Assembly (NCBI RefSeq): GCF_003148665.1 | Contig: NZ_QGGQ01000002.1 | Location: 434,001-498,000 of the forward strand | Length of the DNA: 64,000 nt | Reading direction: 5' to 3' | From: Maribacter polysiphoniae | GTDB lineage: Bacteria > Bacteroidota > Bacteroidia > Flavobacteriales > Flavobacteriaceae | Shown here: in pieces, positions 29,611 to 47,463 of the stretch | Layout of the letters: the number at the start of each line of letters is the position of its first letter | How positions within the stretch are numbered: position 1 is the first letter of the stretch | Program-made: the position numbers and the translations under genes | The notes under the pieces: model-generated | Told to the model about the DNA's origin: nothing | The model's input: the letters and a program-made list of their open reading frames with translations, nothing else | Database searches by the model: none

Positions 29611-30615
29611 CTACCTAAAACCGAAATTCATACCTACTGATAAGGTATTGAATTCCGCAATGGCATAATCGGCATGCAACCTAAAGAATCCCAATTTTAA
29701 TTTCGCACCAAGGTTGGCGGTCATACCGCTAGCTTTCCTTTTAATGGAGAAGGGATCGACATATGTTTGTTGAAAAGGCCCTGACTGCACCCGATAGGTA
29801 CCCAGTACATCGGTAGTCGACGACCCGGATAGATACCCTAAGCCTCCATAAAAATTAATGATGGGAAGCTTTGTAGAGACCACCGCCTGAAAAACCCAGG
29901 TATTAACATCAACCTCCAATTTCTGATCCTCACCATCTACGATACTTGAATTGGTAAAATCATAAGACCCATCCAAATGGGTGTATCCAATTACCGCTGA
30001 TATGGCCACAGGTAAAATCTTATCCGCGGGAAGGTGCTTGGTAAATTCATGTTGTATACCTACACCATACATCCCTATTTTATATTCATCAGTACTGACT
30101 TTAGGCAAGAACCTTGCCTTCAACTCGGTCCCTTTTATCAATCCAACACTCGCTTGTATAAAAGCGGAAGGCACAAAATTGATACTTTCAGAGGCCAAAC
30201 CGGTAGGCAATTCAATATCTTGCCTCAACAAGCCATTCTCATCCTCGATATACACATTGACCCCTTCAATATCACCCAAAGCACTGGATACTAATTTTGA
30301 GGTACTACCATCTGAAAACTTTAGGTTCTCATAATCGGCCGTATTCAATTCAAAGGCTTTTTTATCATCCTTGTTCTTGTAGTTGGCCATGTTTCCGATT
30401 ATTGATACCTCAAAACCCCCTAAAGGTTTGGCATCTGCCGTATTGTACCAACCACTGGAAAGACTATACATAAATCCTTCTGAGGCCGGAGCAAGATAAT
30501 CGGTGGTGAATCTTTCGGCATCATTGAGTCCTGCCGCCAATATTTCATTGATATTGGATTGTGCCGAGGCTTGTAAACCAAAGGCCACTGCTACTAGGGA
30601 TACTATTCGTTTCAT
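29611..30615 (-). CDS. Outer-membrane beta-barrel-like protein (possibly DUF6588)
   Basis: A 334-residue exported protein with a signal peptide (MKRIVSLVAVAFGLQASAQ). The mature part starts with a helix NINEILAAGLNDAERFTTDYLAPASEGFMYSLSSGWYNTA and continues as amphipathic beta strands with Gly/Tyr/Phe pairs. It ends SVGMNFGFR, consistent with a small barrel. I believe it belongs to DUF6588, a Bacteroidota family of unknown function, but I cannot confirm this here. It follows gyrB on the same strand with a terminator hairpin in the 72-base gap. It therefore either depends on read-through or has a promoter inside the gyrB end. Confidence 0.7.
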   Translation of the reverse strand: MKRIVSLVAVAFGLQASAQSNINEILAAGLNDAERFTTDYLAPASEGFMYSLSSGWYNTADAKPLGGFEVSIIGNMANYKNKDDKKAFELNTADYENLKFSDGSTSKLVSSALGDIEGVNVYIEDENGLLRQDIELPTGLASESINFVPSAFIQASVGLIKGTELKARFLPKVSTDEYKIGMYGVGIQHEFTKHLPADKILPVAISAVIGYTHLDGSYDFTNSSIVDGEDQKLEVDVNTWVFQAVVSTKLPIINFYGGLGYLSGSSTTDVLGTYRVQSGPFQQTYVDPFSIKRKASGMTANLGAKLKLGFFRLHADYAIAEFNTLSVGMNFGFR

Positions 30616-30638
30616 TTGTCTGAATTTTCCCTAAAACT

Positions 30639-30668
30639 AAAAATCCCGACGGTATCGTCAGGATTTTT
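30639..30668 (-). terminator. gyrB: Intrinsic terminator of gyrB
   Basis: The stem AAAAATCCTGACG / CGTCGGGATTTTT on the minus strand (one G-T pair) has a 4-base loop and ends in a T run. It begins 20 bases after the gyrB stop and ends only 24 bases before the ATG of the next gene. Confidence 0.8.
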
Positions 30669-30687
30669 GTTGTGTAACTACTGTTTT

Positions 30688-32631
<1,944 letters not shown>

Positions 32632-32668
32632 TTAAGTTGTTGTAATCATTATAATTTTTGCAATCTTA

Positions 32669-32676
32669 CAAATATA
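32669..32676 (-). promoter_or_regulatory. Candidate -7 promoter box for gyrB
   Basis: TATATTTG on the minus strand matches TAnnTTTG and lies 41 bases before the gyrB ATG. Confidence 0.45.
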
Positions 32677-32772
32677 ACCAATACCCTATGGAATATAGGC
32701 CTTTGGCTTTTATTTAACCTTGAAGTTATCAACAATAATTGTGGAAAATATAAGCATCCTTTTTACAGCCTT

Positions 32773-32844
32773 AGGGAAAACCCTGAGTTATAAAACCACA
32801 TAGTTTACCTGATGTATGCGGGGTTTATTGTTAGCAACTTGCAT
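32773..32844 (+). promoter_or_regulatory. Shared upstream element, copy A
   Basis: A 72-base segment that aligns without gaps to 40515-40586. It starts with the inverted repeat AGGG-AAAA-CCCT, then CCCTGA, a TAAAA tract, CACA, TTTACCTGATGTAT (14 identical bases) and AGCAACTT. It ends 24 bases before the lipocalin-like gene. It is probably a promoter with an activator site, common to the lipoprotein cassette. Confidence 0.65.
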
Positions 32845-32868
32845 ATATAATATTAACACCCGAATACG

Positions 32869-33345
32869 ATGAAAAAATTTGATTGTATATGCCTCATGGT
32901 TGTCATGCTCATTGCTGTTTCTTGCACAAATGATGATGCTGATAATTTGACCCAAGATGTCATTATTGGCACCTGGAAACCAATTAAAGAAGCAGTTTTT
33001 GCAGACGACGGAACGCCAGAGGTATTTGATAAGACTCCCTGCGAGCAAACCAGCAGATTTATCTTTGAAACAAATGGCAACTTTACCTATACGGAGTTTG
33101 AAGATGAAGAAGGTGGAGGTTGCGTACCCGATGAAAGTTTTATTCTGGATGGTACTTGGGTAAAACTCGGGACGGGCCGCTATGAATTTAGTTTCACCTA
33201 TTTTAATTCGAGTACCCAACTGGGTGAAAGCGATTCACAAATACCTGATAAAGTAGTGTTCTCCAATGCCAATAGTACCATGCGCATTATTGAGCTAGTC
33301 GATGAAGGCGAGAAATACATTGAATTGGTACGGGTAAATCAATAA
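32869..33345 (+). CDS. Lipocalin-like lipoprotein
   Basis: A 158-residue lipoprotein with the lipobox cysteine at residue 19 followed by TNDDAD, the acidic type of signal linked to surface export in Bacteroidota. The mature protein resembles small lipocalin-like domains: IIGTWKPIKEAVF, FIFETNGNFTYTEFED, GTWVKLGTGRYEFSFTYF, then MRIIELVDEGEKYIELVRV. A cysteine pair (CEQ and GCV) may form a disulfide. It is the first gene after shared element copy A and begins a run of plus-strand genes that includes the two LRR lipoproteins and the two-component system. Confidence 0.75.
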   Translation: MKKFDCICLMVVMLIAVSCTNDDADNLTQDVIIGTWKPIKEAVFADDGTPEVFDKTPCEQTSRFIFETNGNFTYTEFEDEEGGGCVPDESFILDGTWVKLGTGRYEFSFTYFNSSTQLGESDSQIPDKVVFSNANSTMRIIELVDEGEKYIELVRVNQ

Positions 33346-33373
33346 TTGAACTCCACACGTTAAAATAATAATC

Positions 33374-33730
33374 ATGAAAAAGCAACATATTTATTTATTG
33401 ATTACCGTATTGGTAATGACCATGACTTCTTGTAGTAAAGATGATGGTGAGGTGGTGAAAGAACCTGTTAAAAGTAGTGCCAAACAAATTACCGGTTTTG
33501 TGTTTAAAGCAGTTGATAATGATGCGATTACCGAAGATGTGACTGCAATACTAAACGAAACCAACAAAACCATTAGCGCAACGGTTGCCAATGGTACTGA
33601 TGTCACATCGTTAACCCCCACCATTATAGTTTCTGACAAAGCTGTTGTTGACCAAAGTGGAGCAAAAGATTTTTCTTCACCCGTTGACTATGCTGTAACA
33701 GCAGAGGATGGTACAAAAGCCACTTATACC
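33374..33730 (+). repeat. Tandem duplication, first copy (5' part of an LRR lipoprotein gene)
   Basis: The first 357 bases of this gene are closely similar to 35330-35686. They cover the signal peptide and first beta domain. Long stretches differ by single bases only, for example in the first 50 bases after the start codon. This shows a duplication more recent than the divergence of the LRR parts, or gene conversion. Confidence 0.75.
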
Positions 33731-35302
33731 ACATCGGTTACAATTACTCCTAATGACGCCAAACAAATTTTAAGCTTTGTTTTTAGAGTTGAAGATAATG
33801 CTGCTTTAAATGAAGATATTGAAGCTACTATTAATGAAGATACAAAGCTCATTAATGCTACAGTACCTTACGGTACTAATATCAACGAATTGACACCCTT
33901 TATAACCATATCTGAATCAGCCATTATAACACCAACCGGTATACAGAATTTCACTTCAGTAATTAAATATGAGGTAAGTGCCCAAGATGCATCTGTTGTA
34001 ACCTATGATGCAAAAGTAAATGTAACACCAAATAGCGAAAAACAAATTTTGAGTTTTGGTTTTTCATTTACAGAAAACCCCATTTCAACTAATATTATTG
34101 GCACTATTGATGAAGGAGATAAAACAATAACCTTTGATGTCCCATACGGAACCGTTGTCAGTGCTTTACTGCCCAATTTAACTATAAGTAATGGTGCTAC
34201 TGTATCTCCAGAAGGGCTACAAGATTTTAGTAACCCTATTGAATATGTAGTCACAGCAGAAGATGGGTCTACAGAAACCTATAAAGCGACAAGGGTTGTT
34301 TCACAAAGAAATATTTTACTCGCCATTCTTAGTGCAAACCCACGTAATACAATTGATTGGGACTTAAACGATCAAGATATTAGCCATTGGGAAGGAGTTA
34401 CTCTGGATGCAAATAATAACATAATAGAATTAAGATTATCAAACAAATCCATAGATAAACTACCCTTTGCAATAAGCCAACTAAAAAAATTGCAGAATCT
34501 GACATTAGTTTCAAATGATATAGTGACAATTCCTGAATCAATATCCGAATTACAAGATCTTAGGATATTGAATTTACGCGATAATAAATTAAATTTATTG
34601 CCAAAAGAAATTGGCAGTTTAACTAATTTAAGATCATTAATACTAGAAAAAAATGGTTTTCATGCTCTTTCTCTTCCTCGAGAAATAAGTCAATTAACTA
34701 ATCTCAGAAATTTAGATCTTTCTCATAATAACTTTTCCTCTATCCCTGATTTTATATTTGACATGACTTCATTATTAGATTTAGATTTTAATACAAATCA
34801 TTTTTTAACTACCATACCCCCAGAAATTAATCAACTAACAAATCTTATACATCTTAACTTAGCTAAGACCAACTTAAGCTCTTTACCAACAGAATTTGGT
34901 CATCTAACAAATCTTACTGACTTATCGCTTTATGACAATAATTTTACGCACATACCTCAATCCATATCAAGCTTAAACCAATTAAAAACATTAGATTTTA
35001 GATATAATGCTTTGACCTTTATCCCGATAGGAATTAAACAACTCTCTAATTTAACTTCCCTCTCATTAAGTGGGAACCAAATTAGCTACATCCCTTTTGA
35101 AATGGGACAAATGATTAATCTATCGTTTTTGAATTTACAATTCAACGAGCTAAATGATATTCCTATTGAAATTGGACAGCTTGTAAATCTTAGATCTCTT
35201 ATCCTAAGCGGAAACAATCTAACAACATTACCACAAGCAGTTTGCAATTTAGAAAATACAGGTACAAATGTTCAAGTTGATGATGGCGTTATCTGCCAGT
35301 GA
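33374..35302 (+). CDS. Leucine-rich-repeat lipoprotein with three DUF5018-like beta domains
   Basis: A 642-residue protein. The lipoprotein signal ends at Cys20, followed by SKDDGE, fitting surface export. Three related domains of about 90 residues follow (near 35-127, 128-220 and 221-308). Each begins KQI(T/L)xFxF, and each has a YEV-type strand near its end. They resemble DUF5018-like or cadherin-like beta-sandwiches. An LRR cap (AILSANPRNTIDWDL, residues 313-345) leads into about twelve LRRs of the type LxxLxLxxNxLxxIP, each near 23 residues. The gene is AT-rich compared with its surroundings. Likely role: binding protein or glycan partners at the surface, by inference. A close paralog follows 27 bases after. 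Confidence 0.82.
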   Translation: MKKQHIYLLITVLVMTMTSCSKDDGEVVKEPVKSSAKQITGFVFKAVDNDAITEDVTAILNETNKTISATVANGTDVTSLTPTIIVSDKAVVDQSGAKDFSSPVDYAVTAEDGTKATYTTSVTITPNDAKQILSFVFRVEDNAALNEDIEATINEDTKLINATVPYGTNINELTPFITISESAIITPTGIQNFTSVIKYEVSAQDASVVTYDAKVNVTPNSEKQILSFGFSFTENPISTNIIGTIDEGDKTITFDVPYGTVVSALLPNLTISNGATVSPEGLQDFSNPIEYVVTAEDGSTETYKATRVVSQRNILLAILSANPRNTIDWDLNDQDISHWEGVTLDANNNIIELRLSNKSIDKLPFAISQLKKLQNLTLVSNDIVTIPESISELQDLRILNLRDNKLNLLPKEIGSLTNLRSLILEKNGFHALSLPREISQLTNLRNLDLSHNNFSSIPDFIFDMTSLLDLDFNTNHFLTTIPPEINQLTNLIHLNLAKTNLSSLPTEFGHLTNLTDLSLYDNNFTHIPQSISSLNQLKTLDFRYNALTFIPIGIKQLSNLTSLSLSGNQISYIPFEMGQMINLSFLNLQFNELNDIPIEIGQLVNLRSLILSGNNLTTLPQAVCNLENTGTNVQVDDGVICQ

Positions 35303-35329
35303 AAATTAAATTTTAAAAAATATAAAATC

Positions 35330-35686
35330 ATGCAAAAACAACATATTTATTTATTGATTACCATATTGGTAATGACCATGGCTTCCTGCAGTAAAGAGGA
35401 TAGCGAAACCATTCAAGAACCAGTAAAAAGCAGTGCCAAACAAATTACCGGTTTTGTTTTGAGAGCTGAAGATAATGCTGCAATTACTGAAGATGTTACT
35501 GCAGTTATAAACGAAACCAATAAAACAATTAGTGCTACTGTTGCCAATGGTACTGATATTAAAGCGTTAACACCTATGATACTAATTTCCGACAAAGCTG
35601 CTGTTAATGAATCTGGAGCAAAAGATTTTTCATCTCCAGTAGACTATGTCGTTACTGCTGAGGATGGGACGAGTGCTACCTATACA
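35330..35686 (+). repeat. Tandem duplication, second copy (5' part of an LRR lipoprotein gene)
   Basis: The counterpart of 33374-33730. The encoded first 119 residues are mostly identical to those of the upstream gene, including KSSAKQITGFV and ISATVANGTD. Confidence 0.75.
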
Positions 35687-36916
35687 GTAACAGTTGGCAT
35701 CGCGCTTAATAGTACAAAAGAAATCTTAAGTTTTGCGTTTAGAAAGGAAGACAATCAACTGTATGGTGATGAGACCATTACGACAATCATTGATGATGCA
35801 AACAAAACCATCACCGCTACAGTTTCCTATAGTGCCAATGCAGCATTATTAGTACCAAGTATTGAAGTGTCTCCAAATGCATCTGTTAGTCCAGATGTAG
35901 CTCAAGATTTTAGCACCCCTGTTGCTTATACCGTTACAGCTGAAGATGGCACTACAACAGAATATCAAGTGACATTAGAAATTACATTTACCGACAGGGA
36001 TGCTTTAATCGCTATTTACAATGCCAATCCGAATAATACACTTGGTTGGGATTTGAATGACCCAGAAATTGAGAATTGGGTTGGAGTTGATTTAAATAAT
36101 GAAGGTAGAGTGACTGTTTTAGGAATTTCCTCAAGGCTTCTTATTACCATCCCCCCAGAAATTGGAAAACTAGCGCATTTAGAAACTTTATTTGCAAACA
36201 ATAATAACTTTACTGATGTACCACAAGAGTTTCAAGAACTATCAAATATAGTGGTCCTATATTTAAACAACAATGATTTTACATCAGTTCCAGAGGAAGT
36301 TTGTCAACTTTCAAACCTAAAGATTTTAGCGCTAAGTAGTTTAAACCTTTCATCATTGCCTCCAGAAATCGGAAACCTTTCCCAGTTAACTACATTATAT
36401 TTAAATGATAACCGATTAACAGCTTTGCCAGATGAGTTAAAACAAGTTTCAGTTTTAAAAATACTAGACCTATCTTATAATAATTTCACTAGTTTTCCTA
36501 CTATTCTTTTTCAAATTCCAAGTCTCACCAATTTACGCTTAGACAATAACCAACTAACGGCAATATCAAGCCAAATTGAATTATTAACTAATCTTAAAGA
36601 TTTACGTTTAAATGATAATTCCATAAGATTCGTACCCTCCAATATTTCAAAATTGACCGCATTAAAAAAGCTATATCTTGAGAATAACGATATAGCTTCA
36701 ATCAGCAGTAGTATAGGATTACTTTCCAATTTAGAAGAATTAACTTTTAAAAATAATGATTTAGGATCTATCCCTCTCGAAATTAAAAACCTGACAAACC
36801 TAAAAACACTAGACCTAACTATAAATCCAGAATTATTTGCCATTTCTCAAGCAATATGTGATTTGGTCAATACGGGTACGGATGTTAGATTGGACAATCA
36901 GACCACATGCCAATAA
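35330..36916 (+). CDS. Leucine-rich-repeat lipoprotein with two DUF5018-like beta domains
   Basis: A 528-residue paralog of the previous gene. The lipidated Cys20 is followed by SKEDSE. There are two beta domains of about 90 residues (near 35-127 and 128-218) instead of three. The cap is IAIYNANPNNTLGWDLNDPEIENWVGVDL. About eleven LRRs follow, with more sequence change than in the N-terminal part. Both paralogs end in a matching tail (AxCxLxNTGTxVxxDxxxxCQ) with two cysteines that may cap the LRR. The loss or gain of one beta unit suggests domain-level recombination. It is probably co-transcribed with its neighbours, as the next start is 8 bases after the stop. Confidence 0.82.
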   Translation: MQKQHIYLLITILVMTMASCSKEDSETIQEPVKSSAKQITGFVLRAEDNAAITEDVTAVINETNKTISATVANGTDIKALTPMILISDKAAVNESGAKDFSSPVDYVVTAEDGTSATYTVTVGIALNSTKEILSFAFRKEDNQLYGDETITTIIDDANKTITATVSYSANAALLVPSIEVSPNASVSPDVAQDFSTPVAYTVTAEDGTTTEYQVTLEITFTDRDALIAIYNANPNNTLGWDLNDPEIENWVGVDLNNEGRVTVLGISSRLLITIPPEIGKLAHLETLFANNNNFTDVPQEFQELSNIVVLYLNNNDFTSVPEEVCQLSNLKILALSSLNLSSLPPEIGNLSQLTTLYLNDNRLTALPDELKQVSVLKILDLSYNNFTSFPTILFQIPSLTNLRLDNNQLTAISSQIELLTNLKDLRLNDNSIRFVPSNISKLTALKKLYLENNDIASISSSIGLLSNLEELTFKNNDLGSIPLEIKNLTNLKTLDLTINPELFAISQAICDLVNTGTDVRLDNQTTCQ

Positions 36917-36923
36917 GAGCCTA

Positions 36924-37841
36924 ATGAAAAAAATCATACCCATACACCATCTGATTATTACCCTATTGACATTATTCTGCGCACAAAATTTGCGCTCACA
37001 AGAAACAGGCCAAATAAACTACCCAGAGCTAGGCATCTCATTTCACGTACCCGAAGGTTGGGTTGGAAATAAAGTAGCATCGGGCTTTGCCATCACCTCC
37101 TCAAAAACCAAAGGGGTACTATTGATCATCACCCATGATGTACAAAGCATCCAAGAAATGGAAATAGAAGCCAAAAACGGATTTAAAATCGGCAAAAACA
37201 CGCTTCTTAAGCCTATAAATGGTGTGGAGAAAATTTCCGATAATACGATTGCCGGCATATACGAAGGTGTCATAGACACAAAACCTTCCAAGGCCTTGAT
37301 TGTAGGCATAACAAACCCGTATGGCTACGGATTGACGCTATTATGCGCTGCTGGTTCAAGCGCCTATTCCGATGATCTTCAAAACGCCGGACTTTGGGTA
37401 ACGGCATCCGTGAATTTTTATGAACCACAAACGCAAACCACTGCTATGACAGCACACGAAAATCCTTCTACATGGGGCGAATTGTTAAAAAACTGCCGCT
37501 TAACCTATATGGAATCTTACAACACCTCAGGGGGTGGCTATGGCAAAAAAATCAAAATAGATTTATGTGGCCAAGGGTATTTCAACCACTCCACCTATAA
37601 TAGCATGGGAATGGACACGGGTGGTGCCAGTGCCGGGTATGGGAGCAATAACAAGGGTACCGGACAATGGAAAACATATCTGAACGCACACGGACAGGAT
37701 GTATTGCAACTGAACTTTTATAATGGGGAGGTTTATGAGTATATTGTAACCACAGATGAAGAAGACAAGACCTTTTTAAATGGCGACCGCTATTTTAGAA
37801 CCTATAAAGATTCTGGCAAATACAGCCCTTTATGTGACTGA
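36924..37841 (+). CDS. Secreted protein of unknown function
   Basis: About 305 residues from the ATG at 36924 (MKKIIPIHHLIITLLTLFCAQNLRSQ), which makes a good signal peptide. An in-frame ATG at 36837 lies inside the preceding LRR gene and is rejected. The mature protein has two parts. Residues 30-175 read as a PsbP-like or DUF-type alpha/beta domain (YPELGISFHVPEGWVGNKV, then GLTLLCAAGSSAYSDDL). A second, Gly/Tyr-rich part (about 190-305) holds GGGYGKKIKIDLCGQGYFNHSTYNSMGMD and GSNNKGTGQWKTYLNAHGQDVLQLNFYNGEVYEY. I do not recognise the family. Codon use looks more GC-rich than the flanking LRR genes. Confidence 0.68.
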   Translation: MKKIIPIHHLIITLLTLFCAQNLRSQETGQINYPELGISFHVPEGWVGNKVASGFAITSSKTKGVLLIITHDVQSIQEMEIEAKNGFKIGKNTLLKPINGVEKISDNTIAGIYEGVIDTKPSKALIVGITNPYGYGLTLLCAAGSSAYSDDLQNAGLWVTASVNFYEPQTQTTAMTAHENPSTWGELLKNCRLTYMESYNTSGGGYGKKIKIDLCGQGYFNHSTYNSMGMDTGGASAGYGSNNKGTGQWKTYLNAHGQDVLQLNFYNGEVYEYIVTTDEEDKTFLNGDRYFRTYKDSGKYSPLCD

Positions 37842-37893
37842 TCGAAACAAATGAATATATATGTGATATGTAGTGTATCTGAACCAAACCAAT

Positions 37894-39843
37894 ATGAAAC
37901 TTTATCTTAGAATCTTTATTCTTTTATTTTATACGGTAAATTCTTATTCTCAAAGTAGAATAATTGACAGTCTTAAGATTGAGTTGAATAAAGAAGAAAA
38001 GGATTCACTCAAAGCAAAAATTTTATATGATTTATCTTACGAATATCTTTATCAGTCTATTGATACAATGATTCTCTTTTCAAAAAATTTAGAGAAGCTT
38101 GCCATAAGAATGAATTCAGATAAATACAAATCTCTTGCAAATAAAAGTCTGGGTGATGCTTTTTTATATTCTAACATGTATGATTCTGCTAATACACATT
38201 TCAAAAAAGCATTGCATTTTGATATAAGGGCTAACAAATCATCTGTTTATTCCTCTATGGGAATTTTATATAAAAGACAAGGAAAGTACGAAGAAGCCCT
38301 AACTATATATCTCAAAGGCCTTAAAGAGGATGAAGTCAATGGAAATGATTATGGGAGATATATAAAATTAGCTAACATAGGAAACCTCTACATGGAATTA
38401 AAAGATTATAAAAACAGTATTGTATACTCGAAAAAAGCACTGGAATTAGCACAATCAACAAAGAATGAATCAATGCTTTCCTCAATGGGGACTTTATTAA
38501 ATAACATAGGCGGTAATTATTCATTTCTTAACGAATATGATACGGCTATCCATTATTTACATGAATCTTTGAATGTTAATATGGAAAATAACAATAAAAG
38601 AGAATTAGCAAGGACATACACAACTTTAGGCTCGGTTTATTCCTCAATAAATCAAGATAGGAAATCATTGGAATATCTTAAAATGGCCCTTAAATTTCGA
38701 GAGGAATTAGGAGATAAAATAGAGCTAGTGGAAACAAAAATAGCCTTGGGTTTTACCTATGGCAAAACAAACCAAATCAACAAATCCAATTACTACTTTG
38801 ATGAAGCCTTAACAATGGCAATGGAAATTGAAAATATGGATTTGATCTCTCAGACATATTTAGCAATTAGTGATTATTATTCTTTGGTAAACAAGTATGA
38901 AAAAGCGCTATTAAATTATAGGTTATTCATAAAATTCAAGGACAGTATTCTTAAAATAAATAACTTTAAAAACATTCAAGAACTTCAAACAAAATACGAA
39001 ACCGAAAAAAAAGACAACGAGATCGCCTCACAAAAGCTTCAATTACAAGAAAAAGAAAATGACATCCTTAAAAAGAAAAATCAATACAACATGGCCTTAG
39101 GTGGAGGTGGTTTTTTATTGTTGGGTAGTTTAGGACTGTGGTTATTTTATAGACAACGACAAAAAATAAAGAACAATGAAATATTGGCACTTGAAAGCCA
39201 ACAGGAAGTTGTAAAACTAGAAGCATTGATAGATGGCGAAGAAAAAGAACGCAATAGACTGGCACAAGACCTTCATGACGGTATTAATGGAGATCTCGCA
39301 GTTATTAAGTATAAGATAAGCTCCATCGAACCCGATAATTTTTCGAAAAAGGAAAAGGTTTTTTATGATGAAGCCATAAGTATGTTAGACAATGCCGTAG
39401 AACAAGTACGAAGAATTTCGCATAACCTTGCCCCTCCTTCCTTACATAATTTTGATTTGATAGAGGCCATTCAACAATTCTGTTCAAAACAGAATGCTTC
39501 CAATCCCTTAAATATCAGTTTTCAATATTTTGGCAATAGATTGATATTGAAAAAAGAAAATGAAACCGCTATTTATCGCATCATTCAAGAGCTGATCAAT
39601 AATATAATCAAACATGCGAATGCTACTGAAGCCCTAGTGCAATTAAACAATCATGGTAACAAACTCATTATTACCGTAGAAGATAATGGCCAAGGATTTG
39701 ACACGAATTCTTCTGAGAATGGAATAGGTTTACAAAATATCAAATCGCGGGTTAATTTTCTAAAAGCGAATCTAGATATCAATTCCAATACCAAGGGCAC
39801 AACTTTTTGTATTGAAATTGATCTAAAAAAGAATAAACTATGA
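37894..39843 (+). CDS. TPR-containing sensor histidine kinase (HisKA_3 type)
   Basis: About 649 residues from the ATG at 37894 (MKLYLRIFILLFYTVNSYSQ); a GTG at 37873 is less likely. After the signal peptide come about six to seven TPR units (residues 65-340), probably periplasmic. A coiled segment and one membrane helix follow (ALGGGGFLLLGSLGLWLFY). The kinase core has ERNRLAQDLHDGINGDLAVIKY with the phospho-accepting His, then the ATP-binding IIQELINNIIKHANATEA, VEDNGQGFD and NGIGLQNIKSRV motifs. The stop overlaps the regulator start (ATGA), so the pair is translationally coupled. The signal it senses is unknown. Its position between surface lipoprotein genes suggests it controls them. Confidence 0.88.
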   Translation: MKLYLRIFILLFYTVNSYSQSRIIDSLKIELNKEEKDSLKAKILYDLSYEYLYQSIDTMILFSKNLEKLAIRMNSDKYKSLANKSLGDAFLYSNMYDSANTHFKKALHFDIRANKSSVYSSMGILYKRQGKYEEALTIYLKGLKEDEVNGNDYGRYIKLANIGNLYMELKDYKNSIVYSKKALELAQSTKNESMLSSMGTLLNNIGGNYSFLNEYDTAIHYLHESLNVNMENNNKRELARTYTTLGSVYSSINQDRKSLEYLKMALKFREELGDKIELVETKIALGFTYGKTNQINKSNYYFDEALTMAMEIENMDLISQTYLAISDYYSLVNKYEKALLNYRLFIKFKDSILKINNFKNIQELQTKYETEKKDNEIASQKLQLQEKENDILKKKNQYNMALGGGGFLLLGSLGLWLFYRQRQKIKNNEILALESQQEVVKLEALIDGEEKERNRLAQDLHDGINGDLAVIKYKISSIEPDNFSKKEKVFYDEAISMLDNAVEQVRRISHNLAPPSLHNFDLIEAIQQFCSKQNASNPLNISFQYFGNRLILKKENETAIYRIIQELINNIIKHANATEALVQLNNHGNKLIITVEDNGQGFDTNSSENGIGLQNIKSRVNFLKANLDINSNTKGTTFCIEIDLKKNKL

Positions 39844-40475
39844 TTAAAGTAGCGATTTGTGATGATCACACCATGGTGCTAAGAGGCATAGAAACAATGT
39901 TGGAAGATTCTGATATAATCACAATTTGTGCAACCTATAATTTTGGAAAACAACTCATTGCGGAAATTGACAAGAACCTTCCAAATGTGCTCTTATTAGA
40001 CATTAATTTGCCCGATGGCAATGGCATTGAATTATGCAAAGAACTTACTAAAAAGCATCCCGAATTAGCAATTATTGGATTGTCTAACTATAGTGAAACC
40101 GGATTTATTAAAAATATGCTTCGAAATGGTGCAAAAGGATATTTACTCAAAAACACGGATAAGCAAGAGTTAATACTGGCCATTACCACAGTACATAAAG
40201 GAGAAACCTACCTTCCAAGAAATATTCAGGATATTTTGTTGAATGAAAGCATTGGAAACCCTTCTCAAATAACCTTTATACCCAAACTTACGCGAAGGGA
40301 AACCGAAGTACTTCATTTGGTTGCAAAAGAGCATACGAATCTAGAAATTGCAGATTTACTTTTTATCAGTACCAAAACCGTAGAAAGTCACCGTAACAAC
40401 CTCATTCAGAAATTGGGCGTTCGGAATACAGCCGGACTTATAAGAGTAGCTCTTGAAAAAGGATTGCTTGGCTAG
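39840..40475 (+). CDS. NarL/LuxR-family response regulator
   Basis: A 211-residue regulator. The receiver domain has the acidic pocket ICDDH (residues 6-10), the phospho-acceptor Asp in VLLLDINLPDGNGIEL near residue 57, and the conserved Lys in GYLLKNTD near residue 104. The C-terminal HTH (LTRRETEVLHLVAKEHTNLEIADLLFISTKTVESHRNNLIQKLGV) binds DNA. The start overlaps the kinase stop by four bases. Shared element copy B begins 40 bases after the stop codon, which makes autoregulatory or neighbour control likely, by inference. Confidence 0.92.
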   Translation: MIKVAICDDHTMVLRGIETMLEDSDIITICATYNFGKQLIAEIDKNLPNVLLLDINLPDGNGIELCKELTKKHPELAIIGLSNYSETGFIKNMLRNGAKGYLLKNTDKQELILAITTVHKGETYLPRNIQDILLNESIGNPSQITFIPKLTRRETEVLHLVAKEHTNLEIADLLFISTKTVESHRNNLIQKLGVRNTAGLIRVALEKGLLG

Positions 40476-40514
40476 TATAAAATAGCTCCCCAGCGAATTG
40501 ACTAACACCATACT

Positions 40515-40586
40515 AGGGTTTACCCTGACTTTTAAAAACACAGATTTTACCTGATGTATTTCTCGGGTATTAACAGCAACTTACAA
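40515..40586 (+). promoter_or_regulatory. Shared upstream element, copy B
   Basis: Aligned without gaps to 32773-32844. It opens with the inverted repeat AGGGT-TT-ACCCT, continues with the CCCTGA, TAAAA and CACA blocks, and shares TTTACCTGATGTAT and AGCAACTT with copy A. It ends 26 bases before the IPT/NHL lipoprotein gene. In both copies the conserved blocks keep the same spacing, as expected of a promoter plus operator. Confidence 0.65.
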
Positions 40587-40612
40587 CTGTTAATTATTAA
40601 ATAAAAAATCTG

Positions 40613-42649
40613 ATGAAAACAATTTCCAAAATTATCCTTTTATCTGTTTTAACCGCTTTTTTATTCTTTGCATGTTCCAAAGATGAAGATGAACAGGAAC
40701 CGCAGCCCATTCCAAAAACCACACTTAGTTCCATTAGTCCCAATCAGGGAATCAAGGAAACAGCGGTCACCATAAGTGGAATCAATTTTGGAACGGATAA
40801 AACAAAGGTGAAGGTGCTTTTTAATACTACGGAAGCCGTCATACAGTCAGTAACCAATACACAAATCAAAGTACTGACCCCAATCAATGGTAGTACGGGT
40901 GCAATAAAGGTTTCTGTTGATGGTGTTTCTGTTTCAGGACCAATATTCACGTATCTGCAACCTACTTTAAGTAGTGTTGATCCTGAAAGTGGTCCAAAAG
41001 CGACTCAAGTGACCTTCACAGGAAGTACTTTTGGAACAGACGCCAGTAAGGTGCAGGTATTTTTTAATGATATTGAGGCAGTAGTCGAATCTGTTACAGA
41101 TACTCAAGTAGTTGCGTTAGCACCGGATAATGCAACATCGGGTGTTGTTAAGTTAATTGTGGATGGAACCGAATTAACAGGCCCTGAATTTACATTTTTG
41201 ACCCCCACTTTAGTAGGTTTCACTCCCGAAAGCGGACCCGTTGGAACTGAAGTAACTATTACTGGAAGTTTATTTGGAACCGATACCACTAAAGTACAGG
41301 TGTTTTTGGATGAAGAACTTGAGCTTGAGATAAAATCTATAAGTGACACCGAAATAAAAGTAGATATTCCCAATGAATCAATCTCAGGAATAATATCAAT
41401 AATCGTTGATGGTACCGAGCTTATTGGAAATGAATTTGTACTGGAAGCCGCCATTACCGGTATTGAGCCGGAAAGTGGTATTAAAGGAACGGAAGTTACC
41501 ATAAACGGAAGTTCATTTATAACGTTAGCAGGTATGGATCGCATTGCTGTTTTTATTAATGATAAAGAAGCTCAAATAACCAGTGTACTTGATGACGAAA
41601 TCAAAGTAATAGTGCCCGCTAAAGCCTTTTCTGGAAATGTAAAAGTGATTATTAAGGACGATGAATATGTAGGGCCCGTTTTTAATTATATCGTATCAGA
41701 AATTGAAGTTTCTACTTTTGCAGGAAGCGGCAGTATCGGATTTTCGGATGGATTAGGTACCGCTGCTCAATTTCGATCACCCATAGCGATTGCCATAGAT
41801 GACCTTAGTAATATTTATGTAGCAGATAGAGATAATTATGTTTTGCGAAAAATTACTCCAGTTGGAGAAGTTTCAACTTTGGCCGGAGTGGGTAGACAAT
41901 TCGGAGATATAGATGGAACAGGTGCAGAGGCGAGATTCAATGCAGTTAACGCCATAGCCTTTACCAAAAGCGGTGATATGCTAGTGTGCGATGCAAACAA
42001 TCATAAAATAAAAAAGGTAACCACGGGCGGCGTTGTCACCACTTTTGCAGGTACTGGTATAAATGGTTCTAGCAACGGCCCTGCCTTAAGTGCAACATTT
42101 AAGGGCATTTCGGGTATCGCAATAGACAGCAAAGGCAATGCATATATTGTAGAAAGAAACGCACACGCCATACGTAAAATAAGTACCAGCGGAGAGGTAA
42201 GTCTTTATGCGGGAGACTCCCAGCCTGGTACTACTAACGGTAATGGTACAGCTGCTAGATTCAACTTTCCACAAGGAATTGCAGTTGATGCAGCCGATAA
42301 TTTGTATGTAACGGATGGTGGAACTCATTTAATACGCAAAATAACACCCAATGCTGATGTGAGTACTATTGCAGGAAGCATAAAAGGTTTTACTGATGGG
42401 CAAAGTACAACCGCACAATTCAATTTTCCTACTGGAATTGTAGTTGATAAACAAGGTGATATCTATATCGTTGATAAAAATAATCATAGCATACGTAAAT
42501 TATCATCCGATGGTAATGTAACTACAATAGCTGGAGATGGAACCACCACAGATTTTAATTTCCCAAACGGTATTACCATTGATGCTTTGGGGGATTTATA
42601 TGTAACAGATCAACTAAAACATAGAATACGTAAGATAACGCAAGAGTAG
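40613..42649 (+). CDS. IPT/TIG and NHL-repeat lipoprotein
   Basis: A 678-residue lipoprotein. Cys21 is followed by SKDEDEQEPQP, an acidic surface-export-like signal. Four IPT/TIG immunoglobulin-like domains follow (near 38-115, 116-195, 196-275 and 276-360), each starting with a phrase like SPNQGIKETAVTISG. The C-terminal part (365-678) holds six NHL repeats, with phrases such as GIAVDAADNLYVTDGGTHLIRKI, forming a beta-propeller. The plan resembles SusE/F-like or surface glycan-binding and adhesion proteins of Bacteroidota, but no exact role can be given. It has its own upstream element (copy B), directly behind the two-component system. Confidence 0.85.
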   Translation: MKTISKIILLSVLTAFLFFACSKDEDEQEPQPIPKTTLSSISPNQGIKETAVTISGINFGTDKTKVKVLFNTTEAVIQSVTNTQIKVLTPINGSTGAIKVSVDGVSVSGPIFTYLQPTLSSVDPESGPKATQVTFTGSTFGTDASKVQVFFNDIEAVVESVTDTQVVALAPDNATSGVVKLIVDGTELTGPEFTFLTPTLVGFTPESGPVGTEVTITGSLFGTDTTKVQVFLDEELELEIKSISDTEIKVDIPNESISGIISIIVDGTELIGNEFVLEAAITGIEPESGIKGTEVTINGSSFITLAGMDRIAVFINDKEAQITSVLDDEIKVIVPAKAFSGNVKVIIKDDEYVGPVFNYIVSEIEVSTFAGSGSIGFSDGLGTAAQFRSPIAIAIDDLSNIYVADRDNYVLRKITPVGEVSTLAGVGRQFGDIDGTGAEARFNAVNAIAFTKSGDMLVCDANNHKIKKVTTGGVVTTFAGTGINGSSNGPALSATFKGISGIAIDSKGNAYIVERNAHAIRKISTSGEVSLYAGDSQPGTTNGNGTAARFNFPQGIAVDAADNLYVTDGGTHLIRKITPNADVSTIAGSIKGFTDGQSTTAQFNFPTGIVVDKQGDIYIVDKNNHSIRKLSSDGNVTTIAGDGTTTDFNFPNGITIDALGDLYVTDQLKHRIRKITQE

Positions 42650-42683
42650 TAAATCACTTTTAAATAGTATAAAAAAATATAAA

Positions 42684-42947
42684 ATGAAAACAAATATTAA
42701 AACTATAACAAGAACAGCTGTTTTTTGTTTGCATCAAGATATTACGTAATGTAAAAGCGGTAGTAAAGGAATTGATGCCGATAGTGGTAATGAAGGAGGA
42801 AATAACAGTGGGGCACAAACTTAGAACCGATTACCTGCTGTTGTTGAAATTCTTGGAAAGCATCAAGAATAGGAAATTGAACAACTTGATAATGGAAAGG
42901 TTGTCTTGGATAACAACAAAGGATTGGGCGATCAATGGTTTTTATGA
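42684..42947 (+). pseudogene. Decayed small lipoprotein gene
   Basis: From the ATG at 42684 one frame reads MKTNIKTITRTAVFC, which looks like a signal peptide, then a TAA at 42747. The codon directly after the stop is a Cys, followed by KSGSKGIDADSGNEGG, like a lipoprotein start. The same frame goes on with sensible sequence (PAVVEILGKHQE, then EIEQLDNGKVVLDNNKGLGDQW) interrupted by TAG at 42822, TAG at 42870 and TGA at 42945. No frame change is needed. This is best read as a gene broken by point mutations. A 66-codon ORF in another frame overlaps it and looks spurious. It follows the NHL gene by 34 bases. Confidence 0.45.
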
Positions 42948-43147
42948 AAATCAAACATTCAAATCAAACTAATTAAACCTTGGTTTACACACCTGAAGTT
43001 CCCCCTTAAAAAAACGAGTGACCACAAATTAGAGCACTGTATCACTATGGTTGGTAGAGGTTCTGAATTAAAACCCAGGAACCTTCCTTTATGACGTTAA
43101 CAGTGGCTTAAATTCTAAGTATCTATATAAAAACAAATCCCACATCC

Positions 43148-43171
43148 GACGGAAAACCAGGGTTTTCCGTC
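43148..43171. repeat. Perfect inverted repeat of unknown role
   Basis: GACGGAAAAC-CAGG-GTTTTCCGTC, a 10-bp perfect stem with a 4-base loop, in the intergenic space after the decayed gene. No T run follows on the plus strand. On the minus strand GGGATTTG follows, so it is a poor terminator either way. Confidence 0.6.
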
Positions 43172-43180
43172 CATAGTCCA

Positions 43181-43219
43181 TAAAAAGAAAAGAAGCATCA
43201 AATGAATGACACTTCTTTT
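43181..43219 (-). terminator. asnB: Second terminator downstream of asnB
   Basis: A 13-pair stem with two G-U pairs forms between 43188-43200 and 43207-43219, with a six-base loop. CTTTTTA follows on the minus strand. It probably backs up the nearer asnB hairpin. Confidence 0.6.
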
Positions 43220-43234
43220 TTGACTAATTCAACT

Positions 43235-43279
43235 AAAATCCGAAACTATTCACCTCCCTAGGAAGGCTATCGGATTTTT
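43235..43279. terminator. asnB: First terminator downstream of asnB
   Basis: AAAATCCGA (43235-43243) pairs with TCGGATTTT (43270-43278) around an inner near-palindrome CCTCCCTAGGAAGG. The stem is A/T-flanked on both sides, and lies 26 bases after the asnB stop. Confidence 0.6.
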
Positions 43280-43304
43280 CTATTTGCTTTAAAATCGCTT
43301 ACTT

Positions 43305-44969
43305 TTAATAGGCATCATCATGAACATTGGCAACCGCCCTTCCTGATGGATCGTTCATGTTCTTGAATGCTTCATCCCACTCCAAGGCTATCTTTGTACT
43401 ACAAGCCACGGAAGGTTCTTGGGGGACACATAATGCAGCGGCATCGGATGGGAAATGTGATTCGAAAATAGTTCGATAATAGAACTCCTCTTTCGTTGTA
43501 GGTGTTTGCAATGGAAAACGGAATTTAGCATTCGCCAATTGCTCATCGGTAACTTCCGTTGCCACAACTTCTTTCAAAGTATCGATCCAACTATAGCCAA
43601 CACCGTCAGAGAATTGCTCTTTCTGTCTCCATGCCACACTTTCCGGCAACATTTCCTCAAAAGCCTTACGAACCACCCATTTTTCCATACGTTCCCCGTT
43701 GATCATCTTATCCTGTGGGTTGATGCGCATGGCCACATCCATGAATTCCTTATCCAAAAAGGGAACACGCCCTTCAATTCCCCAAGCAGCCAAACTTTTG
43801 TTCGCACGAAGGCAGTCATACATATGTAGTTTGCTCAACTTACGTACGGTTTCTTCATGAAATTCCTGAGCGTTCGGTGCTTTGTGGAAATACAGATAGC
43901 CTCCGAACAATTCATCGGCTCCTTCTCCTGAAAGCACCATTTTTATTCCCATTGATTTAATAACACGTGCCATCAAATACATTGGGGTGGAAGCCCTAAT
44001 GGTGGTGATGTCATAGGTTTCTAGGTTGTACACCACATCCTTGATGGCATCAAGACCTTCTTGGATGGTAAATTTTATTTCGTGGTGCACCGTTCCTATA
44101 TGATCGGCAACTTTCCGGGCTGCGGCTAAATCCGGCGAACCCTCCAAACCTACTGAAAAGGAATGCAGTTGCGGCCACCAGGCATCGGCAGTATCACCGG
44201 ACTCAATACGTTTCTGTGCGTATTTTTTCGCTACGGCTGAAGTTACCGACGAATCAAGTCCTCCAGAAAGCAACACACCATAGGGCACATCAGACATTAA
44301 CTGTCTATGAACCGCTGCTTCCAATGCTTCTTTTATCTCTTGAATACTGGTTTCATTATCTTTAACGGCATCGTACTCCATCCAATCACGGGTATACCAT
44401 TGCTTCAATTCCCCATCACTACTATGTAAGTAATGACCGGGAGGGAACAATTCAATTTTGGTACAGGTACCTTCCAAAGCCTTTAGCTCAGAAGCCACAT
44501 AAAAAGTACCATTTTGGTCCCACCCCATATACAAAGGAATAATCCCCATATGGTCACGGGCTACAAAATATTCGTCTTTTTCAGCATCATAAATGGCAAA
44601 ACCGAATATCCCGTTCATCTCATCGATAAAATCAACTCCCTTCGCTTGGTACAAAGCCAGAATCACTTCACAATCGGATTCTGTCTGAAAATCATATTTA
44701 CCTTCAAACTGCTTTCGTAGCTCCCTATGGTTATATATTTCCCCATTGGCGGCAAGCACCAACTTCTTATCAGGACTGAACAACGGTTGTTTTCCAGAGG
44801 CTGGATCGACAATAGACAACCTTTCATGAGCCAAAATAGCTTTCTCATCCGCATAAATACCGCTCCAATCTGGTCCCCTATGCCTGATTTTCTTGGACAT
44901 TTCCAACAATTGAGGCCTTAAAACTTCTGTACTTTCCTTTACGTCAAAGGCACAAACAATTCCACACAT
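43305..44969 (-). CDS. asnB: Asparagine synthetase B (glutamine-hydrolysing)
   Basis: A 554-residue enzyme that makes asparagine from aspartate, ATP and glutamine. It starts MCGIVCAFD, with Cys2 the N-terminal glutaminase nucleophile; this fixes the start at 44969. The class II amidotransferase motifs RHRGPDWSG and ANGEIYNHRELR follow. The synthetase half has the ATP pyrophosphatase loop LLSGGLDSSVTSAV near residue 240, LSGEGADELFGGYLYF near residue 350, and GIEGRVPFLDKEFMD. Length is normal for the bacterial asnB type. It is a single gene facing the DUF2911 gene across a 272-base AT-rich divergent interval. Confidence 0.97.
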   Translation of the reverse strand: MCGIVCAFDVKESTEVLRPQLLEMSKKIRHRGPDWSGIYADEKAILAHERLSIVDPASGKQPLFSPDKKLVLAANGEIYNHRELRKQFEGKYDFQTESDCEVILALYQAKGVDFIDEMNGIFGFAIYDAEKDEYFVARDHMGIIPLYMGWDQNGTFYVASELKALEGTCTKIELFPPGHYLHSSDGELKQWYTRDWMEYDAVKDNETSIQEIKEALEAAVHRQLMSDVPYGVLLSGGLDSSVTSAVAKKYAQKRIESGDTADAWWPQLHSFSVGLEGSPDLAAARKVADHIGTVHHEIKFTIQEGLDAIKDVVYNLETYDITTIRASTPMYLMARVIKSMGIKMVLSGEGADELFGGYLYFHKAPNAQEFHEETVRKLSKLHMYDCLRANKSLAAWGIEGRVPFLDKEFMDVAMRINPQDKMINGERMEKWVVRKAFEEMLPESVAWRQKEQFSDGVGYSWIDTLKEVVATEVTDEQLANAKFRFPLQTPTTKEEFYYRTIFESHFPSDAAALCVPQEPSVACSTKIALEWDEAFKNMNDPSGRAVANVHDDAY

Positions 44970-45180
44970 ATTTTAATATTTATATCAATTTATAGGCAAA
45001 TATCGATTTAAACTTTCATTTAAAAAACTTAACATCACATAATGATTACATTTTATTGCCTTAAACACAAATAAAACTACATATTGATACCATTTATTCG
45101 GAAAAATAAAAATAACCGCCCATTATGTAAGTTGGGATAATTTTAACGACTTTTTATATTCCATTAAATAGAGAACTATT

Positions 45181-45188
45181 TAGTTTTG
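45181..45188 (+). promoter_or_regulatory. Candidate -7 promoter box for the DUF2911 gene
   Basis: TAGTTTTG matches TAnnTTTG, 53 bases before the ATG. The leader then contains a perfect hairpin CCTGAA-ACGAA-TTCAGG at 45200-45216. Confidence 0.4.
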
Positions 45189-45241
45189 GAAAAACTAAAC
45201 CTGAAACGAATTCAGGACAAAAAACAAAGACTAATATAATT

Positions 45242-45781
45242 ATGAAAAAACTAGCAACACTATCACTTATTATGCTTGCCTTGGTATGCACGAACAATTT
45301 ATCAGCCCAGAAATTCAGTGGATTGGATAAAAGTCCCATGGACATGACATCATTCCCTTCCAGTTACAAAGTAGCCGACAAAGCTGTTCGGGTTACCTAT
45401 AGCAGACCCCAATTAAAAGGTCGTTCTGTTTCTGAACTTGCCCCTGCCGGTGAAGTGTGGAGAACCGGTGCCAACGAAGCTGTTGAAATTACTTTTTACA
45501 AAGATGCCAATGTAGGCGGTACCGATGTAAAAGCAGGTACCTATTCCTTATTCACTATTCCTGGTAAAGGGGAATGGACAGTTATCCTAAACAGCAACCT
45601 CAACCAATGGGGTGCGTATTCTTATGACAAAAAAGCGGATGTTGCAAGGGTAAAGGCTGCGACCAGTACGGACAGTGAGTCTTTGGACGCATTCTCAATG
45701 GTCTTCAAGGAAGTAGAAGGTGGTACACATTTGGTAATGGGATGGGGAACCGTTAGGGTTAACCTACCTATCATGTTCTAG
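45242..45781 (+). CDS. DUF2911 family exported protein
   Basis: A 179-residue protein with a signal peptide (MKKLATLSLIMLALVCTNNLSAQ). The mature domain has the DUF2911 phrases VTYSRPQLKGRSVSELAPAGEVWRTGANEAVEITFYKDANVGGTDVKAGTYSLFTIPG and a final GTVRVNLPI strand set. The family is widespread in Bacteroidota and its function is unknown. The beta-rich fold suggests a small periplasmic or secreted binding protein. The gene stands alone, ends in a strong terminator, and has a hairpin in its leader. Confidence 0.9.
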   Translation: MKKLATLSLIMLALVCTNNLSAQKFSGLDKSPMDMTSFPSSYKVADKAVRVTYSRPQLKGRSVSELAPAGEVWRTGANEAVEITFYKDANVGGTDVKAGTYSLFTIPGKGEWTVILNSNLNQWGAYSYDKKADVARVKAATSTDSESLDAFSMVFKEVEGGTHLVMGWGTVRVNLPIMF

Positions 45782-45810
45782 GACGGTCGATCCAAATGAT
45801 CAAGAATATC

Positions 45811-45839
45811 AAACCGAAGCAATTTGCTTCGGTTTTTTT
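45811..45839. terminator. Bidirectional intrinsic terminator
   Basis: The stem AAACCGAAGCA / TGCTTCGGTTT has a 3-base loop and seven T on the right. It sits between the convergent DUF2911 and amidohydrolase genes. Confidence 0.88.
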
Positions 45840-45843
45840 ATAC

Positions 45844-47463
45844 TTAATGAACCCGTTTCCCAGCAATATAAGTCTGTTCAGCCTCTATTTTCGGTACATT
45901 TTCCATAGGGGTTTCCATTAAATCATCGCTATACACCGTAAAATCGGCAAATTTCCCCACTTCTATACTACCCTTCTCCTCTTCCTCAAAATTGGAATAT
46001 GCCGCCCATATGGTCATCCCCCTCAACGCTTCCTCACTTGTCAGGGCATCCTTCATACCATAGCCCCCTTCGGGATAATTATCCAAATCCTTCCTGGCCA
46101 CAGCGGCGTAGAATGTTAGGAACGGACTCACCTTTTCTACAGGAAAATCAGTCCCCAAGGCAATGGTACCCGATTTCTCCAATAAAGCTTTATAGGCATA
46201 GGCCCCTTTTTCCCGTTCTTTCCCAATCCTATCCCCTGCCCAATACATATCACTGGTCGCATGGGTTGGTTGTACGGAAGGGATAATCCCATTCTTGAAA
46301 TAATCAAAATACGCTGGAGAAATGATCTGTGCGTGCTCAACTTTCCAACGTCTATCTTTTTTACCTTCCAAAGCTCTTTTATAAGCCCTTAAAACAACAG
46401 CATTGGCAGAATCGCCTATGGCATGTGTATTCATCTGGTATTCAGTTGCTGCAATGCTATCCGCCAAACGCTCTATTTGGGCTATAGGGGTAACCATGGC
46501 CCCATAATGTCCCGGTTTGTCAGAATAAGGTTCGCGCATGGCCGCCCCTCTTGAACCCAAGGCCCCATCGGCATAAACCTTGACGGAACGCACATTCAGG
46601 TGTTCGGTTTTAAAGGGTTTGCGTTTCAAATAATAATCCAAATTACTTTGAGAAGCGCTTATCATCGCATATATCCGAATGGATAGATCCCCAGTTTGGT
46701 GAAGGCTATCGATCAACGCTATGGTTGAACGACCAAGCCCCGCATCGTTGACCGTTGTAAGTCCATAATCCAAACAAATGCTTTCGGCATCCTTTAAAGC
46801 TTGGATTTGGGCCTCCCTATCCATGGGAGGAATTACCGCATAGACCATATCCATGGGATTATCGATCAAAACACCGGTTAACTTTCCCTCTTTCTTAACG
46901 ATTTCACCACCATCGACCTTGGTATCCATATCAATACCAGCTATATCCAACGCCTTTTGATTGACCAAGAGCGCGTGCCCATCGATTCGGCTTAAAGCTA
47001 CCGGTGTATCTGGAAACAAGACATCCAATTTATCTTTGGTGGGAAATTCCTTTACCTCCCAATCATTTTGATCCCATCCATCCCCTAGAATAAAGTCCTT
47101 CGGATGACGTTCCTGAAACGCCTTGACTTTTTCAAGTACCTCATCAAAACTCTTGGTACCCATCAAATCGACTACTTGTTGTTTTTGACCCAATCCGTAA
47201 AAATGGCAATGGGCATCGATTAGTCCGGGAGTTATGGTTTTACCTTGGGCGTCCACGATAGTATCGGAAATATATTTTGCTTGGATTTCATCCGATGTAC
47301 CTATGGCTACAAACTTACCATCATTCACGGCAAAAGCCTCGACCTTGGAAAAATCCCCATCTACGGTATAGGTATTTGAATTGATTACAATCAATTCAAC
47401 ATTTTCCTTTTTTTGGCCACAAGCCACCAATAAAATCGAAAAGAGCAGCAAAAAATATTTCAT
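45844..47463 (-). CDS. Amidohydrolase lipoprotein, YtcJ-like (amidohydrolase family 3)
   Basis: About 539 residues from the ATG at 47463 (MKYFLLLFSILLVAC); a TTG two codons earlier is the other option. The lipobox cysteine is at residue 15. The metal-dependent hydrolase marks are seen: PGLIDAHCHFYGLG (first metal histidines, residues 80-93), GDGWDQNDW, HALLVNQKALDIAGI, NTHAIGDSANAVVLRAY, VEHAQIISP, and ALGTDFPVE with the late Asp. Members of this group act on amides or N-substituted compounds, and most have unknown substrates. As a lipoprotein it acts in the envelope, which is common for Bacteroidota members. It is a single gene with its own promoter-like box. Confidence 0.9.
   Translation of the reverse strand: MKYFLLLFSILLVACGQKKENVELIVINSNTYTVDGDFSKVEAFAVNDGKFVAIGTSDEIQAKYISDTIVDAQGKTITPGLIDAHCHFYGLGQKQQVVDLMGTKSFDEVLEKVKAFQERHPKDFILGDGWDQNDWEVKEFPTKDKLDVLFPDTPVALSRIDGHALLVNQKALDIAGIDMDTKVDGGEIVKKEGKLTGVLIDNPMDMVYAVIPPMDREAQIQALKDAESICLDYGLTTVNDAGLGRSTIALIDSLHQTGDLSIRIYAMISASQSNLDYYLKRKPFKTEHLNVRSVKVYADGALGSRGAAMREPYSDKPGHYGAMVTPIAQIERLADSIAATEYQMNTHAIGDSANAVVLRAYKRALEGKKDRRWKVEHAQIISPAYFDYFKNGIIPSVQPTHATSDMYWAGDRIGKEREKGAYAYKALLEKSGTIALGTDFPVEKVSPFLTFYAAVARKDLDNYPEGGYGMKDALTSEEALRGMTIWAAYSNFEEEEKGSIEVGKFADFTVYSDDLMETPMENVPKIEAEQTYIAGKRVH

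Follow-up and report, generated by a model that had tools for sequence, protein, structure and literature searches.

Two segments of 72 nt, at positions 32773-32844 and 40515-40586, lie 7.7 kb apart in the window (the whole stretch of 64,000 nucleotides analysed in this study), each ahead of a lipoprotein gene, and the question raised by this locus is what joins them. When re-aligned from the sequence, the segments matched without gaps at 52 of 72 positions, in agreement with the first-pass annotation that had paired them; the best match of any other 72-mer of the window, on both strands, to either copy was 38, and across 100 sequences of 64 kb generated with a first-order Markov model (one strand) matches to copy 2 peaked at 41. 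The features listed earlier as common to both segments (AGGGnnnnCCCT, CCCTGA, TAAAA, CACA, an identical 14-mer TTTACCTGATGTAT, and AGCAACTT) are all present, and the distances to the start codons are as reported: copy 1 ends 24 nt before the ATG at 32869 and copy 2 ends 26 nt before the ATG at 40613. On comparative sequence grounds, the element is a real, conserved and regulator-linked promoter element.

The two copies and the genes of the locus

Copy 1 heads a run of genes and copy 2 follows the response-regulator gene, and the genes directly behind them are unrelated (they share no Pfam family; one encodes a Lipocalin_4 protein, the other a TIG/NHL protein); both points had been described correctly in the first-pass annotation. 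The genes, all on the forward strand, are:

32869..33345, +, Lipocalin_4-like lipoprotein, first gene behind copy 1 (Pfam)
33374..35302, +, lipoprotein with DUF5018 and leucine-rich repeats (Pfam)
35330..36916, +, lipoprotein with DUF5018 and leucine-rich repeats, paralogue of the 33374..35302 gene (Pfam)
36924..37841, +, exported-looking protein without a Pfam family, recurring in loci of the regulator clade
37873..39843, +, TPR sensor histidine kinase (Pfam TPR_12, HisKA_3 and HATPase_c above cut-off)
39840..40475, +, response regulator with receiver and GerE domains (NarL/LuxR type, Pfam), proposed activator of both copies
40613..42649, +, IPT/TIG and NHL-repeat lipoprotein, gene behind copy 2 (Pfam)

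The run 32869-40475 is tightly packed (gaps of 28, 27, 7, 31 and -4 nt), so copy 1 plausibly drives all of it, from the lipocalin-like lipoprotein through the kinase and regulator, as one operon. Copy 2 sits in a 137-nt gap ahead of the IPT/NHL lipoprotein gene. With its TPR repeats, HisKA_3 and HATPase_c domains, the kinase, which probably starts at the ATG at 37894, belongs to the TPR-type HisKA_3 sensor kinases. The response regulator (Response_reg 83.3 bits, GerE 65.9 bits, both above the Pfam cut-off) has a receiver followed by GerE, the domain order of the NarL/FixJ (LuxR-type) group. A modest, medium-confidence structure model of the 36924-37841 protein (pLDDT 71) gave weak PsbP-like matches, which suggests that its first half may be PsbP/Mog1-like. 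Behind the IPT/NHL gene, 42671-42960 has a signal-peptide-like start soon followed by stop codons and, judged by eye, looks like a gene remnant. Elsewhere in the window, two near-identical tandem tRNA-Glu (ttc) genes are located on the minus strand (6110-6184 and 6243-6315).

The genome-wide search proposed in the first-pass annotation, for which many copies ahead of housekeeping genes had been named as the outcome speaking against a regulon, revealed only two convincing copies, those of the window, and such a spread was not seen. In the 5.13-Mb genome, AGGGNNNACCCTGANNTNTAAAA with up to 2 mismatches detected both copies at 0 mismatches and two further sites at 2 mismatches, compared with 1 match for its reversed control. 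The 14-mer by itself is unspecific (84 places at up to 2 mismatches vs 64 for the reversed control), and at its third exact site in this genome (C22) the flanks are without similarity to the segments. Two sequence profiles described below, R1 and R2, each found the two copies and one weak partial match (E 0.007 and 0.008, at different places).

Anatomy and age of the element

A pattern scan of 397 genomes of the family detected the element in four of them: the genome of the window, Kriegella aquimaris DSM 19886 (G129; two matches), Yeosuana marina JLT21 (G322; two matches) and G184 (one matching place). Nine copies from these four genomes align gap-free over 79 columns. The anatomy of the element was recognised from the copies of G184, in which the dyad AGGGnnnnCCCTGA is complete in the second box as well, 26 nt downstream of box 1. 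The layout derived from the relatives consists of (i) the dyad AGGGnnnnCCCTGA (box 1), (ii) a second box 26-27 nt on, (iii) a -7-like box, nAnnTTGC, 25-27 nt further, and (iv) the start codon about 30 nt later. Both window copies fit this frame, with only the promoter-proximal half of box 2 kept (4 of 8 dyad letters conserved):

32773..32786, +, copy 1 box 1, dyad AGGG-AAAA-CCCT plus GA, aligned with relatives
32799..32812, +, copy 1 box 2, 26 nt after box 1; CATA replaces AGGG in the degenerate distal half, ACCTGA is retained in the proximal half
32835..32842, +, copy 1 proposed -7 box CAACTTGC; transcript start predicted near 32847
40515..40528, +, copy 2 box 1, dyad AGGG-TTTA-CCCT plus GA
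40541..40554, +, copy 2 box 2, ACCTGA retained in the proximal half; distal half degenerate
40577..40584, +, copy 2 proposed -7 box CAACTTAC; transcript start predicted near 40589

The first-pass annotation overlooked that the segments are built as a tandem operator plus a promoter box. The spacing between boxes 1 and 2, taken to the best second box within 24-29 nt, is 26-27 nt in all 38 copies measured, and the best -7 match lies 25-27 nt after box 2 in 34 of them. Alignment A3, which has few gaps, comprises these 34 copies and omits the other four (L047, L050, L052, L118), whose best match falls at 19 nt. At the -7 place nAnnTTGC occurs in 28 of these 34 copies and TAnnTTGY in 20, each being found elsewhere only once in 2634 positions of the same copies; as the box taken for each copy is the one that matched best over a range of distances, the finding lies in the fixed distance and not in the match itself. 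An ATG follows 29-37 nt behind the reference C of the -7 box in 30 of 34 copies.

The -7 box resembles the SM5 promoter class of Flavobacterium psychrophilum, defined by TAnnTTGY at -12 to -5, with a reported median leader of 24 (PMC9723704). The likeness lies in the 20 copies with TAnnTTGY and in predicted leaders of about 22-24 nt; the boxes of the window copies, CAACTTGC and CAACTTAC, deviate from TAnnTTGY by one and two letters, respectively. In the accessible part of that report, alternative sigma factors are considered the most likely basis of SM4-6, and an operator upstream of SM5 is not mentioned (PMC9723704). If the -7 box is an SM5 box, transcripts would start near 32847 and 40589 with leaders of 22-24 nt, and the centres of boxes 2 and 1 would fall at about -42 and -68.

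The same gene order (kinase, regulator, IPT/NHL gene) was found in K. aquimaris, whose regulator is 92% identical to that of the window, and in Y. marina, in both cases with one copy ahead of the run and one behind the regulator; clear full LRR genes are absent from the K. aquimaris locus. A further locus, L200, identified by protein search alone, carries both copies at the same places. Copy 1 is identical to the first copy of K. aquimaris at 68 of 79 positions and copy 2 to the second at 76 of 79, compared with 55 of 79 between the copies of the window. Each window copy is therefore closer to its counterpart than to the other, which indicates that both positions are old and predate the split.

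Linkage of the element to one regulator clade

The distribution of the element and that of the regulator were determined separately in 299 genomes of the family (by size, tallies and handles the same set), using profile R1, built solely from the sequences of the nine copies of four genomes, and the regulator protein, respectively. The protein search yielded 67 genomes with E ≤ 1e-40; up to 20 kb were fetched around matches 3 to 42, matches 1 and 2 being the window and K. aquimaris. In a tree of 43 regulators (without L119, which overlaps L057, and L120, with an interrupted regulator), 28 form one clade (support 97/93), 14 form a sister clade (100/99), and L084 is a long branch outside both.

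R1 matches at E ≤ 1e-4 were present in 21 of the 299 genomes, namely in 19 of 24 with a regulator of the clade and in 2 of 275 others (Fisher p 2e-23); with the three training genomes removed, the counts were 16 of 21 vs 2 of 275 (p 3e-20). These figures follow a stricter count in which G150 is kept outside the clade; only the best regulator matches went into the definition of the clade, and the genomes are related, so the p values overstate independence. In all 16 non-training clade genomes with an R1 match, a copy lies within 9 kb of the clade regulator gene. At the level of loci, R1 matched at E ≤ 0.0025 in 22 of 28 clade loci (the window, L042 and L043 being training copies), the remainder being L045, L046, L047, L048, L050 and L051. 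The best R1 match among the 14 sister-clade loci had E 0.08 (L082), and the outlier L084 gave a partial match (E 4e-4) about 9 kb from its regulator.

The 43 loci contain 38 dyads of the type AGGGnnnnCCCT, compared with 2 to 12 for seven control dyads, and AGGG....CCCT occurs in 18 of 25 fetched clade loci vs 3 of 14 sister-clade loci; enumeration of other dyads revealed no counterpart in the 14 sister-clade loci. The GerE domains of the two groups also differ, with HR followed by M, N, K, S or T in the clade rows and HRRN in the 14 sister rows.

A second, descriptive profile (R2), built from 34 copies and searched in 40 genomes, matched at E ≤ 1e-3 in 23 of 25 clade-regulator genomes (not G215 and G083) and in G118 and G150. 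Among the 13 sister-clade genomes, one matched at this threshold and three at E ≤ 0.01. At E ≤ 1e-9 R2 found 35 copies in 23 genomes, most of these copies having been used to build it; 32 of them lie on the same contig as the regulator, 31 at a distance of no more than 9 kb, and all 32 are on the regulator's strand.

Behind each of 28 copies examined there is an ATG frame of at least 60 codons, starting 9-48 nt from the cut end in 25 cases and at 71, 112 and 141 nt in L115, L117 and the first copy of L056; the 81-codon frame of L059 is doubtful. With a crude pattern, a lipobox is indicated in 13 of the 28 downstream proteins, and 11 more have a signal-peptide-like start, as judged by eye. Pfam analysis of 10 identified a collagen-like lipoprotein, two T9SS galactose-binding-like proteins, two LRR proteins and an FG-GAP protein, and left four without a family. 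The downstream genes thus differ, although from their sequences most look exported, so that the promoter goes with the regulator and not with its target.

The pairing has exceptions. Among nine Flavobacteriaceae-type loci with regulators 68-92% identical to that of the window (L198-L206), six have R1 matches at E ≤ 1e-3 (two of them in training genomes), and L201, L202 and L205 (74, 72 and 74% identity) have none at E ≤ 0.1. L045 and L046 (74 and 73% identity), L047, L048 and L051 gave weak or no matches, the best of these six clade loci being L050 (R2 E 2e-4). Close relatives can therefore lack a clear copy, and its presence is not simply set by closeness to the window's regulator. The 13 more distant loci searched (L207-L219) contained no R1 match. 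Whole-genome R2 searches of the clade genomes G215 and G083 detected nothing at E ≤ 0.01, and G158 gave weak matches only. The clade members without a clear copy count against a simple regulator-element pairing and need explaining.

Two genomes of the same genus, G032 and G258, are without the clade regulator (best identity 30 and 44%) and had no R2 match better than E 0.007; G258 has a partial R1 match (E 7e-4) despite this absence. G118 carries a good copy, yet its best regulator homologue is only 36% identical and far away. In G150, one copy lies 1.3 Mb from the regulator, whose reading frame is interrupted. The interrupted clade-regulator gene (L120, 4060-4685) is itself about 2.5 kb from another copy of the element.

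Proposed circuit, alternatives and wider occurrence

We consider it likely that both segments are promoters activated by the TPR kinase/LuxR-type regulator encoded between them, in a circuit that would amplify itself through the run behind copy 1; the close relatives lacking a copy keep our confidence at this level. Through its TPR part the kinase (37873-39843) would sense a signal and bring about phosphorylation of the regulator (39840-40475), for which the full dyad of box 1 and box 2, 26 nt downstream, may be the sites of two dimers. Bound at about -68 and -42, the regulator would recruit RNA polymerase to the -7 box, 26 nt beyond box 2. Copy 1 would then drive the genes of 32869-40475, those for the kinase and regulator included, making the circuit self-amplifying, and copy 2 would drive the IPT/NHL lipoprotein. 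Activation rather than repression is proposed from position only, as the boxes lie upstream of the -7 box; activators that touch the polymerase, with an upstream partner dimer, usually sit at such positions. The spacing of 26-27 nt corresponds to about 2.5 helical turns. A regulon shared with the embedded TPR kinase/LuxR regulator had been proposed in the first-pass annotation, and this proposal gains comparative support from the tracking of the clade (19 of 24 vs 2 of 275 genomes), the common strand and the varied targets; what it overlooked is that the regulator itself lies within the copy 1 run and that the layout recurs in the family.

The segments could instead be operators of a different, unlinked regulator, with the kinase/regulator pair as just one of its targets. 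The copy of G118 and one of those of G150, which are not beside a clade regulator, and the close regulator relatives without a clear copy, are in keeping with this, as are AGGG-type dyads beside more distant LuxR-type regulators, since another paralogue could read them. However, the presence of the element follows the clade of the clustered regulator, and the linkage and co-orientation of the copies would be needless for an unlinked one, so we regard this explanation as unlikely. Still less probable is that the same regulator acts mainly as a repressor, or that a separate repressor site covers the -7 box of copy 2. This box does lie under a perfect 8-bp inverted repeat, with similar repeats of 9 and 7 bp in the second copies of K. 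aquimaris and Y. marina, but such a third repeat is not a general feature (mean stem 4.6 in 34 copies vs 3.8 in shuffles), and boxes 1 and 2 precede the -7 box by fixed distances, as activator sites usually do.

The occurrence of two copies in one locus, 7.7 kb from each other, might also be the trace, devoid of regulatory meaning, of one promoter having recently been duplicated or copied by gene conversion; this is very improbable given the greater identity of each copy to its K. aquimaris counterpart, by which both positions predate the split, and given that copies in other genomes precede different genes. Most improbable of all is a transcribed RNA element (a leader or riboswitch), to which the short inverted repeats of the segment might point: the dyads precede the conserved -7-like box, and the region 28000-46000 contains no Rfam match at gathering scores.

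By layout, the system closest to the proposed kinase-regulator circuit among those studied is FimS/FimR of Porphyromonas gingivalis, with which it shares a periplasmic TPR sensor kinase and a response regulator. FimR activates genes for surface structures and binds promoter regions (pg2130, mfa1); its targets are fimbriae, and the accessible portions of these reports give no operator sequence (PMC11053733, PMC1974823). The window kinase scores 59.7 bits against the NCBIfam FimS model, for which the cut-off is 600, and so falls outside the FimS equivalogue. Regulators of the NarL/FixJ type combine a receiver with GerE and, as dimers and upon phosphorylation, bind inverted-repeat sites, dyad operators upstream of the promoter; what was observed here of such binding is the inverted repeats and their linkage to the regulator. 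The sequence AGGGnnnnCCCTGA, the fixed tandem spacing of 26-27 nt and the Bacteroidota-type -7 box, on the other hand, belong to the element described here. In the literature on the motif strings and the regulator type, judged by titles, we found no description of this operator. One regulator clade gains, from sequence, a predicted operator, promoter frame and target list. Such a constant regulator-operator pair with changing surface proteins behind it suggests that display at the cell surface works as a plug-in system. Regulators of this type are numerous in flavobacterial genomes; as a rough measure, the 67 matching genomes contain 16 to 80 first-look candidates for P0006.

Within the family, a dyad beside a LuxR-type regulator was also found in G320; L188, a family locus retrieved with the exact tandem-dyad pattern, has its dyad beside such a regulator. 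Beyond the family, AGGG-type dyads occur beside LuxR-type regulators in G420, G649 and G683 (loci L153, L156, L159 and L173); we treat these as a lead towards a wider DNA code and not as a result. In 395 genomes of the class, R2 matched at E ≤ 1e-3 in 18, mostly as weak or partial matches. The exact tandem-dyad pattern was discarded as support, with 15 of 390 class genomes matched vs 8 for the reversed control. We put forward only tentatively, as a somewhat doubtful idea, that AGGGnnnnCCCTGA may be an old DNA code shared by TPR-kinase/LuxR-type regulators across Bacteroidia, with each clade running private, self-amplifying local regulons of fast-changing surface proteins in the same promoter frame, and that TAnnTTGY boxes read as an alternative-sigma class may partly be -7 boxes of such activator-dependent promoters; the reversed-control matches hold this idea at that level.

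Many of the exact-pattern matches are GC-rich repeat arrays (G455, G577, G702, G609, G412). Loci L191, L193 and L195-L197, from other families, are such GC-rich AGGGnnnnCCCT repeat arrays and are unrelated to the element. In one genome, G706, TAGGG(A/T)4CCCTA-like dyads spaced by 22 to 36 nt form several groups (L179, L181-L183), possibly a separate regulon or a repeat family.
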